A stretch of DNA of 64,000 nt, taken from contig CANJGB010000005.1 of assembly GCA_947473805.1 (NCBI GenBank), positions 62,001 to 126,000 on the forward strand. Reading direction: 5' to 3'. Of this stretch, positions 33,079 to 50,286 are shown in pieces. The notes under the pieces were generated by a model. The model was not told where the DNA came from and did no database searches. It saw only the letters and a list, made by a program, of their open reading frames with translations. How positions within the stretch are numbered: position 1 is the stretch's first letter; every line of letters starts with the position of its first letter. The translations under genes and the position numbers were made by a program. Source of the DNA: Alphaproteobacteria bacterium (GTDB taxonomy: Bacteria; Pseudomonadota; Alphaproteobacteria; Ferrovibrionales; Ferrovibrionaceae).

Positions 33079-34050
33079 TCAGTTCGAGTTGTTGTCTGTG
33101 CCGGTCAACGCGGCCAGTTCGCTGGCCACGAGGTTGGGATCGGGCAGGCCTTCGAACGGATCTTCAGCGAGGGCCGAGTTGTGGCGCGCCGACAGTAACC
33201 GGCACACTTCGTCGAGTTGCTCAAGCGACGCGTAGGTCACGCGCAGCTCTCCGGCTGCGCCACGGTGGTCGATCTTGACCTTGAGGCCCAGGGTCTCTGA
33301 CAGGCTGCGCTCCAGCGCCAGCGTATCAGCATCCTTCGGCGGCGCCGATGGCGGCCGCGCTCCCCGCTTCGCGCCAGCGGCCGCACCCTCGGCCTGGCGA
33401 ACGGTCATGCCGCCGGAAATAATCTGCTCGGCCATGGCGATGGGGTCGGCCGCCGACAACAGGGTACGGGCATGGCCCTCGGTCAACCGGCCATCGCGCA
33501 GCATGACCTGAACGGGCTCAGGCAGCCCCAGCAGGCGGAGCTGGTTGGCGACCGCTGACCGGCTCTTGCCGACCATCTCGCCGACCTTTTCCTGGCTGTA
33601 GCCGAACTCGTCCATCAGCCGGCGATAGCCGAGCGCCGCTTCGATGGCGTTCAGGTCGCGGCGCTGGACGTTTTCGATCAGCGCAACTTCCAGCGCCTCG
33701 GCATCGCCCATCGCCTTGATGATGATCGGCACACGATGCAACCGGGCCCGCTGCGCCGCCCGCCAGCGGCGCTCGCCGGCAATGATCTCGAACTGATGTG
33801 CATCGGGGCCGCCGATCGGCCGCACCAGGATCGGCTGCAGGATGCCCTTTTCGCGGACAGAGTCCGCCAGTTCGACAAGGCCGTCCTCATCGAACTGCTG
33901 GCGCGGCTGGTAGCGGTTGGGCACCAGCTGTTCGATCGGCACTTCGCGCATCGGCTGGCGATCGGACGAGACGTGATCCGGCGGACCCTCTTCGTCCAGC
34001 AGCGACGCCAGGCCGCGGCCGAGGCCCTTGCGGCGGTTGTCGTCGATCAT
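33079..34050 (-). CDS. parB: Chromosome-partitioning protein ParB
   Basis: This 323-residue CTP-dependent DNA clamp loads at parS and spreads. Present are the N-terminal ParA-interacting start (RKGLGRGLASLL), the CTP-binding GERRWRA motif (~93), the ENVQR box (LIENVQRRDLNAIE), and a helix-turn-helix (YSQEKVGEMVGKSRSAVANQ). The C-terminal dimer domain ends in DNNSN. It overlaps parA (ATGA). Two parS-like sites lie 1.4 and 3.3 kb upstream of its start. Confidence 0.96.
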   Translation of the reverse strand: MIDDNRRKGLGRGLASLLDEEGPPDHVSSDRQPMREVPIEQLVPNRYQPRQQFDEDGLVELADSVREKGILQPILVRPIGGPDAHQFEIIAGERRWRAAQRARLHRVPIIIKAMGDAEALEVALIENVQRRDLNAIEAALGYRRLMDEFGYSQEKVGEMVGKSRSAVANQLRLLGLPEPVQVMLRDGRLTEGHARTLLSAADPIAMAEQIISGGMTVRQAEGAAAGAKRGARPPSAPPKDADTLALERSLSETLGLKVKIDHRGAAGELRVTYASLEQLDEVCRLLSARHNSALAEDPFEGLPDPNLVASELAALTGTDNNSN

Positions 34051-34862
34051 GCCGCGCGCAGGCCCCGCTCACGACGGATCACTTCGCCGGCCAGTTTGAT
34101 ATAGGCATCGCTGCCGGCGCACTTGTGGTCATAGATCAGGGCCGGCATGCCGAAGCTCGGCGCCTCGGAGATGCGGACGTTGCGCGGGATGACGGTGTTG
34201 TAGACCTTGTCGCCCAGATAGCCACGCACGTCGCGCGCGACCTCGTCGGACAGCTTGTTGCGGCGGTCAAACATGGTCAGGACCACGCCCTGGATTTCCA
34301 GCGCCGGGTTCAGCGTCGTGCGTACCCGCTCGATGGTCTTCATCAGCTGGCCCAGCCCTTCCAGCGCGAAGAACTCGCACTGCAGCGGGACCAACACGGC
34401 ATCGGCGGCGACCATGGCGTTGATCGTCAGGAAGGTCAGCGAGGGCGGGCAGTCGATCAGGATGTGATCGACCTCGAGATGGCATTCCGCGAGAGCATCG
34501 CGCAGGCGATGCGTGCGGCGCGGCAATTCGATCAGGTCGACCTCGGCGCCCGACAGGTCGACTGTCGCCGGTACGATGCTGAGGTTCGGCACCTTGGTCT
34601 CGACCACCGCCTCGGCAACCGTCGCCTCGCCGATCAGCACATGGTACGAGCTGCGGACACGACGGATGCGATCGACACCCAGGCCGGTCGAGGCATTGCC
34701 CTGCGGGTCCAGATCGATGATCAGAACCTTCTCGCCCACGGCAGCGAGCGCTGTGGCAAGGTTGATGGCGGTCGTCGTCTTGCCAACCCCGCCCTTCTGG
34801 TTGGCCATGGCCAGGACGCGCGGGCGGCGAATGATGTTGGCGGGACTAGGCAGATCGGACAC
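34047..34862 (-). CDS. parA: Chromosome-partitioning ATPase ParA
   Basis: This 271-residue protein has the deviant Walker A ANQKGGVGKTTTAINLA (~20-36), IIDLDPQGNAS (Walker A') and HILIDCPPSL (Walker B). It acts on the nucleoid with ParB to segregate origins. The start is GTG 34862, which lies 17 bp inside rsmG; a short basic N-terminal tail (ANIIRRPR) precedes the ATPase core. It belongs to the operon mnmE-mnmG-rsmG-parA-parB. Confidence 0.96.
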   Translation of the reverse strand: MSDLPSPANIIRRPRVLAMANQKGGVGKTTTAINLATALAAVGEKVLIIDLDPQGNASTGLGVDRIRRVRSSYHVLIGEATVAEAVVETKVPNLSIVPATVDLSGAEVDLIELPRRTHRLRDALAECHLEVDHILIDCPPSLTFLTINAMVAADAVLVPLQCEFFALEGLGQLMKTIERVRTTLNPALEIQGVVLTMFDRRNKLSDEVARDVRGYLGDKVYNTVIPRNVRISEAPSFGMPALIYDHKCAGSDAYIKLAGEVIRRERGLRAA

Positions 34863-35454
34863 GGCGCAACCCCTTTAAACGGAGTATGACTCCCGCAGGA
34901 TCGGTTTGGCTGGGTAGTCTTTCCACCTCCATACTCCAATATTTGGTGGCTTCAGTCAATTCCTGCTCAACATCTTGTCCCTTGGGCAGCAAAAGTATCG
35001 TCTGCGGCGTGGCAAACCGAGCGGCAAGGTTAAGCAAGTCCGGCAAAGGCGCCAATGCCCTCGCGGTAATAACGTCGGCCATGGGTGCGGCGGCAGCTTC
35101 AATACGCCCATGATGGACGGTCGCTGCGGCACCACTGACCCGTGCAGCCTCCCGCAGGAACAAAACCTTCCGCTGGTCACTCTCGACGAGGTGGGTCTCC
35201 CCAACGCCAAGGATCGCCAGGACAATGCCTGGAAAACCCGCCCCGCTACCGAGATCGAGCCATCGGCCGGCCGGCGCCATGTTTTTTAACTGCGCGGAAT
35301 CCAAATAGTGCCGCATCCAACGGTCGTTGACGGTCCCGGGTCCGACAAGGTTGATCGCCTTCTGCCACTTGAGCAGAAGATCGTCGAAGATTTTGAGCCG
35401 GCCGAGTGTTTCATGTGAAACATTTGCTGCGGCGGCGAAATCTTCGGCGCTCAG
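34846..35454 (-). CDS. rsmG: 16S rRNA (guanine527-N7)-methyltransferase RsmG, probable CTG start
   Basis: This 202-residue enzyme (GidB) methylates G527 of 16S rRNA. It shows [34 protein letters not shown] (SAM site ~70) and [13 protein letters not shown]. No ATG, GTG or TTG gives a family-like N-terminus. The residues expected at the start ([19 protein letters not shown]) follow a CTG at 35454 that overlaps the mnmG stop as CTGA. I take that CTG as the start, probably used by translational coupling; this is an inference. A parS-like site lies within codons 12-17. Confidence 0.85.
35407..35422. promoter_or_regulatory. parS-like site 1 (inside rsmG)
   Basis: TGTTTCATGTGAAACA matches the universal parS TGTTTCACGTGAAACA at 15 of 16 positions. 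It is embedded in the coding sequence of rsmG, 1.4 kb from parB, and is the exact reverse complement of site 2. Confidence 0.85.
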
Positions 35455-37359: not shown

Positions 37360-37375
37360 TGTTTCACATGAAACA
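37360..37375. promoter_or_regulatory. parS-like site 2 (mnmE-mnmG intergenic)
   Basis: TGTTTCACATGAAACA differs from the canonical parS at one central base and is the reverse complement of site 1. It sits 47 bp before the mnmG start and next to a GTAGGGC word (37351-37357), so bound ParB could also affect mnmG transcription. Confidence 0.85.
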
Positions 37376-46945: not shown

Positions 46946-47992
46946 TTACGCCGCCATCGCGCATCTGCCGCAGGTGCCCGGGCACAGGCGGGGGCCGGTT
47001 GCACTGGTCACGCCGGTGCTTTCGCGCGCCCAGCGAACGAGGCCGGCCAGGCCGGAAATGAATTCCGGCTCGGTCTGCACGGTCGCCACGCGCTCGTAGT
47101 GCGGTACGCCGAACTGCTCGGCCTTCTCGCGATACTCGATGTCGAGTTCGACCAGCGTTTCGGAATGTTCCGACACGAACGCGACCGGCACCACGACGAC
47201 GGGCACCTTGTCGGTGGCGGCACGCTCGATCTCGCTCAGCAGCGGGGGACCGATCCACTCCAGCGGACCGACGCGGCTCTGGTAACAGATCGCATGACCG
47301 GCATGGCGCGGACCCAGGGCTGCGACAATGGCAGCGACAGTCTGCTCGACCTGCCACTGGTACGGGTCGCCGGACGCAACGATTTTCTTCGGCAGGCCGT
47401 GCGCCGAGAACAGCAGGCGCGGCTTCTGGCCCTGGGCGGCAAGGCTGCGGTCAATGGCCGCCTCGATGAGCCGCGCTTGTGCCGCGATCCAACCATCTTC
47501 GACCGGATAGCAGCAGACCGAACTGGTCGGCACGTCGAGGCCGGCCGCAGTCGCGGCCTGGTTCCAGTCCTTGAGCGAGGACCCGCTGGTTGTCGTCGAA
47601 TATTGCGGATAGAGCGGCAGCAGGACGACATGGTCGGGGTGCCATGCTCGCATGTCGGCCGCCACAGCGCGGGCGAACGGGTGCCAGTAGCGCATGGCGA
47701 CAAACACGCGATAGTCGTCGCCCGTGCTGCCCTGCTGGACGAGCAATTGTTGCAGCGCCTGGGCCTGCGCCGTGGTCTGGCCAAGCAGTGGCGAGGCACC
47801 GCCGATGCGCGCATAAACCGCCTTCGCCACCGGCGCACGGCGGGACGAAATCAGCTTGGCCAGCAGCCAGCGGAACAGTTTCGGCAGCCCGATAATGGCC
47901 GGATCGTTGAACAGATTGAACAGGAAGGGCTGGACCGCGTCGGGTCCGTCGGGACCGCCGAGGTTGAACAGAACGACGGCGGTACGGTTCAT
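46946..47992 (-). CDS. hemH: Ferrochelatase HemH
   Basis: This 348-residue enzyme inserts iron into protoporphyrin IX. It has AVVLFNLGGPDGPDAVQPFL, LYPQYSTTTSGS (~131), LLFSAHGLPKKIV (catalytic His ~199) and PVAFVSEHSETLVELDIEY. The C-terminus RLCPGTCGRCAMAA holds three Cys and could bind the [2Fe-2S] cluster reported for some alphaproteobacterial ferrochelatases. It overlaps hemE by ATGA. Confidence 0.96.
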   Translation of the reverse strand: MNRTAVVLFNLGGPDGPDAVQPFLFNLFNDPAIIGLPKLFRWLLAKLISSRRAPVAKAVYARIGGASPLLGQTTAQAQALQQLLVQQGSTGDDYRVFVAMRYWHPFARAVAADMRAWHPDHVVLLPLYPQYSTTTSGSSLKDWNQAATAAGLDVPTSSVCCYPVEDGWIAAQARLIEAAIDRSLAAQGQKPRLLFSAHGLPKKIVASGDPYQWQVEQTVAAIVAALGPRHAGHAICYQSRVGPLEWIGPPLLSEIERAATDKVPVVVVPVAFVSEHSETLVELDIEYREKAEQFGVPHYERVATVQTEPEFISGLAGLVRWARESTGVTSATGPRLCPGTCGRCAMAA

Positions 47993-49035
47993 GCCCGCCA
48001 GTCCTGCACCAGCTTGACCAGTTCGGCGACATTCTCCGGTGGCGTTTCCGGCACGATGCCGTGGCCCAGATTAAAGATGTAGGGACCGTGGCCCAGTGCC
48101 TGCAGCAGGCGTTCTGCCTCGCGCCGCAAGGCGGCACCGCCGGTCACCAGATAACGCGGATCCAGATTGCCCTGCACCACGATATGTTTCTGCAGCTGGC
48201 GGGCAAAATCCATCGGGACCGCCGTATCCAGACTGACTGCATTGATCGCCCGCGTCTCCGCGAAGCTTGCATAATTCAATCCGACGCCGCGCGGAAACGC
48301 GATGACGGGAATATTCGGATGCCGTTCCCGCAGGCCCTGAACGATGGATAAAACCGGCTTCAGGCACCAGCGGCGGAAATCGGCCTCGGGCAGCGCGCCA
48401 GCCCAGGTATCGAAAATCTGCACGACCTCGGCGCCGGCCTCGACCTGCTTCGACAGGTAATCGATCGTCGCATCGACAAGGCGGTCGATCAGCACCTGGA
48501 AGCCTTCCGGATCGCCATAGGCCCAGGTCTTCGCCGCGGCCTGGTCATTCCCGCCACGGCCTTCGACCATGTAGGTCGCGACCGTCCATGGCGCGCCAGC
48601 AAAACCGATCAGCGTGCAGGTCTCGGGCAGGGCCTTGCGCAACAGGCGAACGGTTTCGTAAACCGGCGCCAGGGTCGCATGGATGTCGCGTTCGCCGAGC
48701 TGCTTCAAGGCCTCGACCGACCGGATGGGTTCCATCACCGGCCCCTCACCCTCGCGATAGTCCAGTTGCTGGCCCATGGCGTTGGGCAGCAGCAGGATAT
48801 CGGCGAACAGGATCGAGGCATCGAAGCCGAACCGGCGGATCGGCTGCAAGGTCACCTCGGCCGCATGAACCGGGTTGTAGCAGAGGTTCAGGAAGCTGCC
48901 GGCCCTGGCCCGCAACTCGCGATATTCGGGCAGGTAGCGGCCGGCCTGGCGCATCAGCCAGATCGGCGGCCGGGGACCGGTGTCACCCTGCAAAACGGAA
49001 AGAAGAGACTTGGGCCGGGTGCTGGTCGTTGTCAT
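47989..49035 (-). CDS. hemE: Uroporphyrinogen decarboxylase HemE
   Basis: This 348-residue enzyme converts uroporphyrinogen III to coproporphyrinogen III. Signatures are PIWLMRQAGRYLPEYRELRA (~24-43), GFAGAPWTVATYMVEG and IFDTWAGALPEADF. It is the first gene left of the putative origin and reads away from it, the arrangement described for Caulobacter and Rickettsia. Confidence 0.97.
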   Translation of the reverse strand: MTTTSTRPKSLLSVLQGDTGPRPPIWLMRQAGRYLPEYRELRARAGSFLNLCYNPVHAAEVTLQPIRRFGFDASILFADILLLPNAMGQQLDYREGEGPVMEPIRSVEALKQLGERDIHATLAPVYETVRLLRKALPETCTLIGFAGAPWTVATYMVEGRGGNDQAAAKTWAYGDPEGFQVLIDRLVDATIDYLSKQVEAGAEVVQIFDTWAGALPEADFRRWCLKPVLSIVQGLRERHPNIPVIAFPRGVGLNYASFAETRAINAVSLDTAVPMDFARQLQKHIVVQGNLDPRYLVTGGAALRREAERLLQALGHGPYIFNLGHGIVPETPPENVAELVKLVQDWRA

Positions 49036-49431
49036 CGTGGCCGGACGTTACGCGAAAAGACTCCGAAAAGTCAGCCCCTCCAACCTTAATAAGAATCTAG
49101 ATTCTTAGAAGTAGTTGTAGTGGTTGGCAGGCGCAAACCGGGGATCAAATCGGTCCCGATTCAGTCCCGAAACCGCGGAAATGTATAGATATGCGCACAG
49201 ATCGGGACAAGTCTGTGGGCAAGTGCGTACTGTCGGGTTAGGCAAAGCCACGAATGGCGGGGATCAAACTGTCGCTGGCGAACAGTCCCCGGCTTCCGCG
49301 GCGGCTGGGGAAAGCATACCGGCGCGCCAACAGGGCGCACACAAAATGACATTGGCGTGGCGGAATTTTTGCGGTCCGGCTAAAGGGGGGACTTGTCCCC
49401 GTTATCCCCTGTCGTCCACAGTCTGCCCGGC
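49036..49431. other. oriC: Putative chromosomal replication origin (oriC)
   Basis: This is the only gene-free stretch over 300 bp. It lies between hemE and the PPDK-regulatory gene, as in Caulobacter. DnaA-box-like 9-mers occur on the plus strand at 49393 (TTGTCCCCG), 49402 (TTATCCCCT) and 49412 (TCGTCCACA), spaced 9-10 bp. On the minus strand are TTGCCCACA (49214-49222) and TTGTCCCGA (49202-49210). The 10-mer GGGGATCAAA repeats at 49140 and 49259; its complement contains TGATCCCCG, close to the Caulobacter G-box TGATCCACA. An AT-rich segment at 49085-49120 could be the unwinding element. No perfect TTATCCACA is present. Confidence 0.75.
49090..49107. repeat. 18-bp AT-rich perfect palindrome in the origin region
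   Basis: TAAGAATCTAGATTCTTA is a perfect palindrome inside the AT-rich segment, 55 bp from the hemE start. It may be part of the unwinding element, a protein-binding site, or the hemE control region. Confidence 0.65.
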
Positions 49432-50286
49432 ATGACCAAGTATCATATCCACCTGGTGTCGGATTCGACCGGCGAGACGCTGAAGTCGGTGTCGGGCGCG
49501 ACGTTGGCCCAGTTCGCCGAGAGCCAGAAGGACTGTATCGAACATCTCTGGGCGCTTGTGCGCACGCCTGGCCAGATGGAGCGGGTGATCCAGGCCATCG
49601 CGGCGGCGCGCGGCATGGTGATGTTCACCCTTGTCAGCGAAGAGATGCGCGACATGCTGCAGGAGGCCTGCCGCAACCTGGGCGTCCCTTATATTGCCGT
49701 GCTCGACCCGGTGCTGGCGGCACTCAGCGCCTATCTTGGCGAACAGGCCCATGGCCTGCCGGGCAAGCAGCACCAGCTTGATGCCCATTATTTCGCCCGC
49801 ATCGAGGCGATGCAGTTCACCATGGCCCATGACGATGGCCAGGGCGTCGAGGATGTCGACAAGGCCGATGTCGTGCTGGTCGGCGTCTCGCGCACATCGA
49901 AGACGCCGACCTCGATCTACCTCGCCAATCGCGGCCTCCGCACGGCCAACGTGCCGCTGGTCGCCGGCTTGACCGTGCCGCCGGAACTGGAGACCGCGAC
50001 CCGCCCGCTGATCGTCGGGCTGACCACCAGCCCCGACCGTCTGATCCAGGTGCGCCGCAATCGTCTGCAGAGCATGAACCAGATTGGCGATACGACTTAT
50101 GTGGATCTTGAAACGGTGAAGGAAGAGATCGCCAATGCGCGGCGCCTGTTCACGCGCAATTCGTGGCCGGTGATCGATGTGACCCGCCGTTCGATCGAGG
50201 AAACCGCCGCCGCAATCTACACCCTGTACCAGCGCCGGGCGGAAAGCCTGCGCGTCGAGGCTGCGAAGGGATCCGAGCCATTGTGA
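49432..50286 (+). CDS. ppsR: Pyruvate,phosphate dikinase regulatory protein (DUF299)
   Basis: This 284-residue bifunctional kinase/pyrophosphorylase switches PPDK or PEP synthase on and off. It starts MTKYHIHLVSDSTGETLKSV. The nucleotide-binding loop is VGVSRTSKTPTSIYLANRG (~147-165), followed by GLTTSPDRLIQVRRNRL. ATG 49432 is chosen because the conserved HLVSDSTGET begins there. It is the first gene right of the origin and is GTGA-coupled to maf. A DnaA-box-like array ends 11 bp before its start. Confidence 0.92.
   Translation: MTKYHIHLVSDSTGETLKSVSGATLAQFAESQKDCIEHLWALVRTPGQMERVIQAIAAARGMVMFTLVSEEMRDMLQEACRNLGVPYIAVLDPVLAALSAYLGEQAHGLPGKQHQLDAHYFARIEAMQFTMAHDDGQGVEDVDKADVVLVGVSRTSKTPTSIYLANRGLRTANVPLVAGLTVPPELETATRPLIVGLTTSPDRLIQVRRNRLQSMNQIGDTTYVDLETVKEEIANARRLFTRNSWPVIDVTRRSIEETAAAIYTLYQRRAESLRVEAAKGSEPL

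Follow-up and report, generated by a model that had tools for sequence, protein, structure and literature searches.

The 396-bp intergenic gap between the divergent hemE and PPSR genes, at 49036-49431 of the 64,000-nt stretch of DNA analyzed here (the window), is very probably the chromosomal replication origin (oriC) of this alphaproteobacterium. We consider this the best reading because of the gene order around the gap, the adjacent parABS system, the class-wide conservation of the region, a cluster of DnaA boxes, an AT-rich element carrying DnaA trios, and, in complete relatives, skew minima that fall close to the orthologous locus. A putative oriC had been proposed at this place in an initial annotation, and the cluster order, parS-like sites, gap conservation and skew in relatives described below support that proposal. 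In kind the gap is ordinary: it is of the known hemE-linked alphaproteobacterial oriC type, with weak boxes only.

Results

The gap lies within the conserved cluster order leuS..parB-parA..mnmG-mnmE..rho-hemJ-hemH-hemE / PPSR-maf-aroE-coaE-dnaQ (Table 1). The initial annotation had recognized an origin cluster from hemE on the left and the DUF299 gene, maf, aroE, coaE and dnaQ on the right; family models confirmed these names, and likewise supported rho, hemH, hemJ, secB, leuS, parB, parA, mnmG and mnmE. It had also proposed a comparison of the region among relatives; in 106 of the 110 that we compared, hemE and PPSR are divergent and the gap between them is conserved. A marker frequency peak lies near hemE in Hyphomonas neptunium (PMC6650430), and in Sphingopyxis, where oriC is near hemE, the cluster was proposed as an alphaproteobacterial origin marker (PMC4741004). 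The divergent gap in the cluster, beyond-chance boxes and an AT-rich element that characterize the alphaproteobacterial hemE-type oriC were all found here. Like the hemE-linked oriC of Caulobacter, Hyphomonas and Sphingopyxis, the gap sits between hemE and PPSR in the same flanking gene order, has parAB close by and contains an AT-rich element along with several DnaA boxes (PMC6650430, PMC4741004), but unlike those origins this member has neither a perfect DnaA box nor a recognizable proximal tandem box.

Two parS-like sites were found 12-14 kb from the gap. Each is the exact reverse complement of the other and differs by one base from the palindrome TGTTTCACGTGAAACA, and both lie inside the mnmE-mnmG-parA gene cluster.

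Table 1. Features of the hemE/PPSR gap and its surroundings, in window positions
Feature	Position	Strand	Basis
parB	33079..34050	-	Pfam ParB_N, HTH_ParB, ParB_C
parA	34047..34862	-	Pfam AAA_31, CbiA
parS-like site TGTTTCATGTGAAACA, 1 mismatch	35407..35422	+	motif search, 0.02 expected in window
parS-like site TGTTTCACATGAAACA, 1 mismatch	37360..37375	+	motif search, 0.02 expected in window
hemE, uroporphyrinogen decarboxylase	47989..49035	-	TIGR01464
Very probable oriC, between the divergent genes hemE (minus) and PPSR/DUF299 (plus)	49036..49431	.	
AT-rich DNA-unwinding element, 72.5% AT, overlaps trios	49081..49120	.	joint richest 40 bp of window
18-bp perfect palindrome TAAGAATCTAGATTCTTA, two GANTC sites (49093, 49100)	49090..49107	.	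single-strand DNA fold z -2.4
DnaA-trio-like run TAG AAG TAG TTG TAG, then TGG TTG	49106..49120	+	shuffle test
Proximal tandem box position, degenerate here (GTTTGCGCC); TTATCCACA in many relatives	49130..49138	-	anchored alignment
DnaA box TGATCCCCG, distal box of unwinding module, consensus TNATCCCCG	49139..49147	-	matrix and anchored alignment
DnaA box TTGTCCCGA	49202..49210	-	box matrix
DnaA box TTGCCCACA	49214..49222	-	box matrix
DnaA box TGATCCCCG, second copy	49258..49266	-	box matrix
DnaA box CTTTCCCCA, holds W-box-like core TCCCCA; absent from the initial annotation	49306..49314	-	box matrix
DnaA box TTGTCCCCG, right array	49393..49401	+	box matrix
DnaA box TTATCCCCT, right array	49402..49410	+	box matrix
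DnaA box TCGTCCACA, right array	49412..49420	+	box matrix
PPSR (DUF299) kinase/phosphorylase	49432..50286	+	NF003742

To score DnaA boxes we used a matrix trained on 91 non-redundant relatives with the window's own sequence left out, which replaced a first set of box weights that had been set after viewing the sites. Eight imperfect boxes in the gap scored above 6, while shuffles gave a mean of 1.16 and a maximum of 6 such boxes, and none of 500 reached eight. No other 396-bp tile of the window was as dense as that of the origin, which had 9 sites compared with 4 in the runner-up. In 356 kb sampled from elsewhere in the genome, no 396 bp exceeded five boxes, and the strain's own dnaA locus showed no comparable box cluster. 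All previously named sites were in place, including the plus-strand array TTGTCCCCG-TTATCCCCT-TCGTCCACA, which steps 9 and 10 bp, and the two TGATCCCCG boxes, exactly 119 bp apart within the 11-mer repeat CGGGGATCAAA. The TGATCCCCG 9-mer alone was not significant (2 in the window vs. 1.1 expected); the 11-mer repeat that holds it is real. In agreement with the earlier statement that no DnaA box is perfect, TTATCCACA was absent from the whole 64,000-nt window. The two kinds of box distinguished there, with CCAC and CCCC cores, are indeed present, but they are a class-wide property of these origins and not peculiar to this one, as shown by roughly 600 sites of relatives, in which position 7 of the boxes was 54% A and 44% C. 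Box strand was positional over all relatives, mainly minus near hemE and mainly plus near PPSR, and the window agrees.

At the hemE end we found an unwinding module that the initial annotation had missed and that resembles the known basal unwinding system (BUS) type. Along the plus strand, AT-rich DNA is followed by trios from 49106; a GC-rich spacer then leads to CGGGGATCA, which complements TGATCCCCG. The AT content of the element was reached by only 2 of 63,960 40-bp intervals, and the score of the trio run in the strain's own gap by none of 1000 shuffles. In an alignment of relatives anchored on the CGGGGAT motif, which is present in 71 of 92 loci, the tandem consensus CTGTGGATAA-CGGGGATTA corresponded to a minus-strand TTATCCACA next to TNATCCCCG, and the first box of this tandem was degenerate in the window.

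We then compared 45-bp segments from the 88 relatives in which a minus-strand box lies close to hemE, using a phase-tolerant trio score and per-segment shuffles. Beside the first such box, the trio run fell in the top 5% of same-segment shuffles in 28 of 88 cases (4.4 expected; the relatives are not statistically independent, and a binomial P overstates the strength), compared with 7 of 88 on the opposite strand and 5 of 277 for segments beside other boxes. Because the phase-tolerant score was picked after the result of an earlier, strict triplet-frame score had been seen (44 of 92, with 1-7 in shuffles and 12 in a mirror control), it is the controls, not the absolute P, that carry weight. Class-wide, AT content peaked at 73% just past the trios, and the layout of AT-rich element, trios, spacer and minus-strand box recurred across the class.

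A BUS has at least three DnaA-trios, and the run here has three in a row, with four of five triplets carrying a central A and one TTG interruption. As in the BUS of Bacillus subtilis oriC, a box, a GC-rich spacer and trios follow one another with the same polarity, and 3′-GAT-5′ is the commonest triplet (PMC8287927). Unlike in B. subtilis, the intervening box is degenerate, the middle base of the trios is often T or G instead of A, and the nearest clear box lies 18 bp from the five-triplet run (12 bp counting TGG TTG), compared with the 16-bp limit between box and trios in the BUS search (PMC8287927).

Regulated promoters also carry DnaA boxes, and the local skew of the strain's own contig bears no origin mark, as would be expected if the gap were only a divergent hemE/PPSR promoter region serving DnaA-regulated transcription or datA-like DnaA titration, with the origin elsewhere. 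We regard this as very unlikely, given that the boxes adjoin a trio run and an AT-rich element, the whole layout is kept class-wide, parABS is adjacent, the skew minima of relatives fall near the orthologous locus, and no comparable box cluster accompanies dnaA; moreover, a simple scan for a sigma-70-like promoter found none.

The strain's own genome is a 58-contig draft, and genome-scale skew was read in four complete relatives. Relative to the orthologous locus, the cumulative skew minimum was 46 kb away in G026 and 119 kb away in G029, both sampled every 170-190 kb. It was 116 kb away in G003, where resampling with noise made it wander by as much as 474 kb (90% of trials). The skew maximum of G003 was 8 kb from the antipode of the locus. 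In G045, whose minimum was 1.19 Mb away, the skew was too weak to place an origin. In the relatives with clear skew, the skew check proposed in the initial annotation agrees with an origin at the locus. The dnaA gene was 1.3 Mb from the skew minimum in G003 and far from it in G029 too; dnaA as the origin was ruled out by the skew in these two genomes and the lack of a box cluster at the strain's own dnaA.

On the contig that holds the window (C5), skew was positive over C5:1-92 kb and slightly negative beyond, the opposite of an origin, and its sign switched near window position ~33 kb. Synteny with G003 extends from parB through the window's right end and beyond and is broken left of leuS/parB; because it ends where the skew switches, a rearrangement or misjoin there probably explains most of the wrong-sign skew. 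On the PPSR side, about 65 kb of wrong-signed skew are found in G003 too. Window positions 1-33000 (C5:62-95 kb) and C5:1-62 kb showed mostly positive GC skew up to the synteny break.

The wrong-polarity skew over C5:1-92 kb, and the fact that strong boxes are gone (TTATCCACA is missing and the proximal box is degenerate), could also be read as the trace of an ancestral origin in a lineage that now initiates elsewhere. This seems to us extremely improbable: boxes, trios and the AT-rich element remain far beyond chance, the perfect TTATCCACA is also absent in 60 of 92 relatives, and the skew switch falls at the synteny break and not at the hemE/PPSR gap.

The absence of a TTAA-N7-TTAA CtrA site, remarked on in the initial annotation, held for the whole window even when one mismatch was allowed. 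The genome encodes CtrA (above the NCBIfam CtrA cut-off and 73% identical to a Caulobacter CtrA sequence), GcrA, DnaA and a CcrM-like methyltransferase, for which CcrM was the best model at a score below its cut-off. The GcrA gene (G000:C30:25833-26201) matched its Pfam model in two pieces, 1-61 and 104-150, and the protein appears to have a shortened or divergent middle part. Unlike Caulobacter Cori, which has five CtrA sites (PMC4468827), the gap has no CtrA site to mark it as a CtrA-controlled origin, and published work treats such absence as normal outside Caulobacter (PMC4468827). One box that occurs twice in the gap carries a G at position 2, like the G-boxes of Caulobacter (PMC4468827). 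Unlike those of Cori, the G-at-2 boxes here end in CCCCG, not CCACA. As a further likeness to Cori, one TCCCCA core resembles the Caulobacter W-box. The W-box sequence used for this likeness is reportedly that given by Taylor in 2011.

The window avoids GANTC (77 sites; 52-192 for seven control 5-mers), but four GANTC sites lie inside the gap. No other GANTC pair in the window lies as close together as the two in the palindrome, which are 7 bp apart and adjoin the DnaA trios. Hairpins in the AT-rich element of relatives reached the top 5% in only 17 of 88, with a median p of 0.49, so that the hairpin is a feature of some lineages only. Several GANTC sites had been noted earlier in the Caulobacter origin (PMC3973325). 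In the hemE/PPSR gaps surveyed in 88 relatives (loci L004-L033, L094-L173), the AT-rich element had 46 GANTC sites where shuffles predict 8.7. This excess of about 5-fold is strong and specific, as control 5-mers matched in base composition stood at about 0.2-1.6-fold. Where no CcrM-type enzyme was detected, the excess in the element was 3.2-fold (only 4 sites, 1.3 expected) vs. 3.7-fold in the other genomes, and overall 2.3-fold vs. 1.7-fold, with the former group comprising 14 loci and enzyme presence judged by the RAMA domain only. Because genomes with no CcrM-type enzyme detected showed just as strong an excess, a GANTC/CcrM methylation switch was not supported, and we draw no methylation-control reading from these sites.

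Discussion

From what is known of the protein families, we would expect the gap to be bound by DnaA, melted and loaded with helicase, and to initiate replication, as follows. The weak boxes would be bound by DnaA, and a DnaA filament would grow leftwards from the minus-strand boxes, the nearest being TGATCCCCG at 49139, cross the GC-rich spacer and reach the trio run. On the trios it would melt the adjoining AT-rich element, where the helicase would be loaded. The plus-strand array before PPSR, in the opposite orientation, may form the second half of the DnaA complex, and the duplicated origins would be segregated by ParB on the parS sites.

Because the gap has no E. coli-type box and the proximal box of the unwinding module has decayed, this origin may rely on cooperative DnaA loading. 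We put forward only tentatively, as a rather doubtful proposal, that it runs on weak DnaA boxes only, with cooperative loading from TGATCCCCG and the strand-divergent pair of arrays, and without direct CtrA competition.

The likely origin of this alphaproteobacterium has thus been fixed from sequence alone. The same comparison yields a class-wide blueprint, consisting of an AT-rich element, trios, a minus-strand TTATCCACA/TNATCCCCG tandem and a plus-strand array before PPSR, which can locate origins where skew is weak and which gives the basal unwinding system a concrete, testable place in alphaproteobacterial origins.
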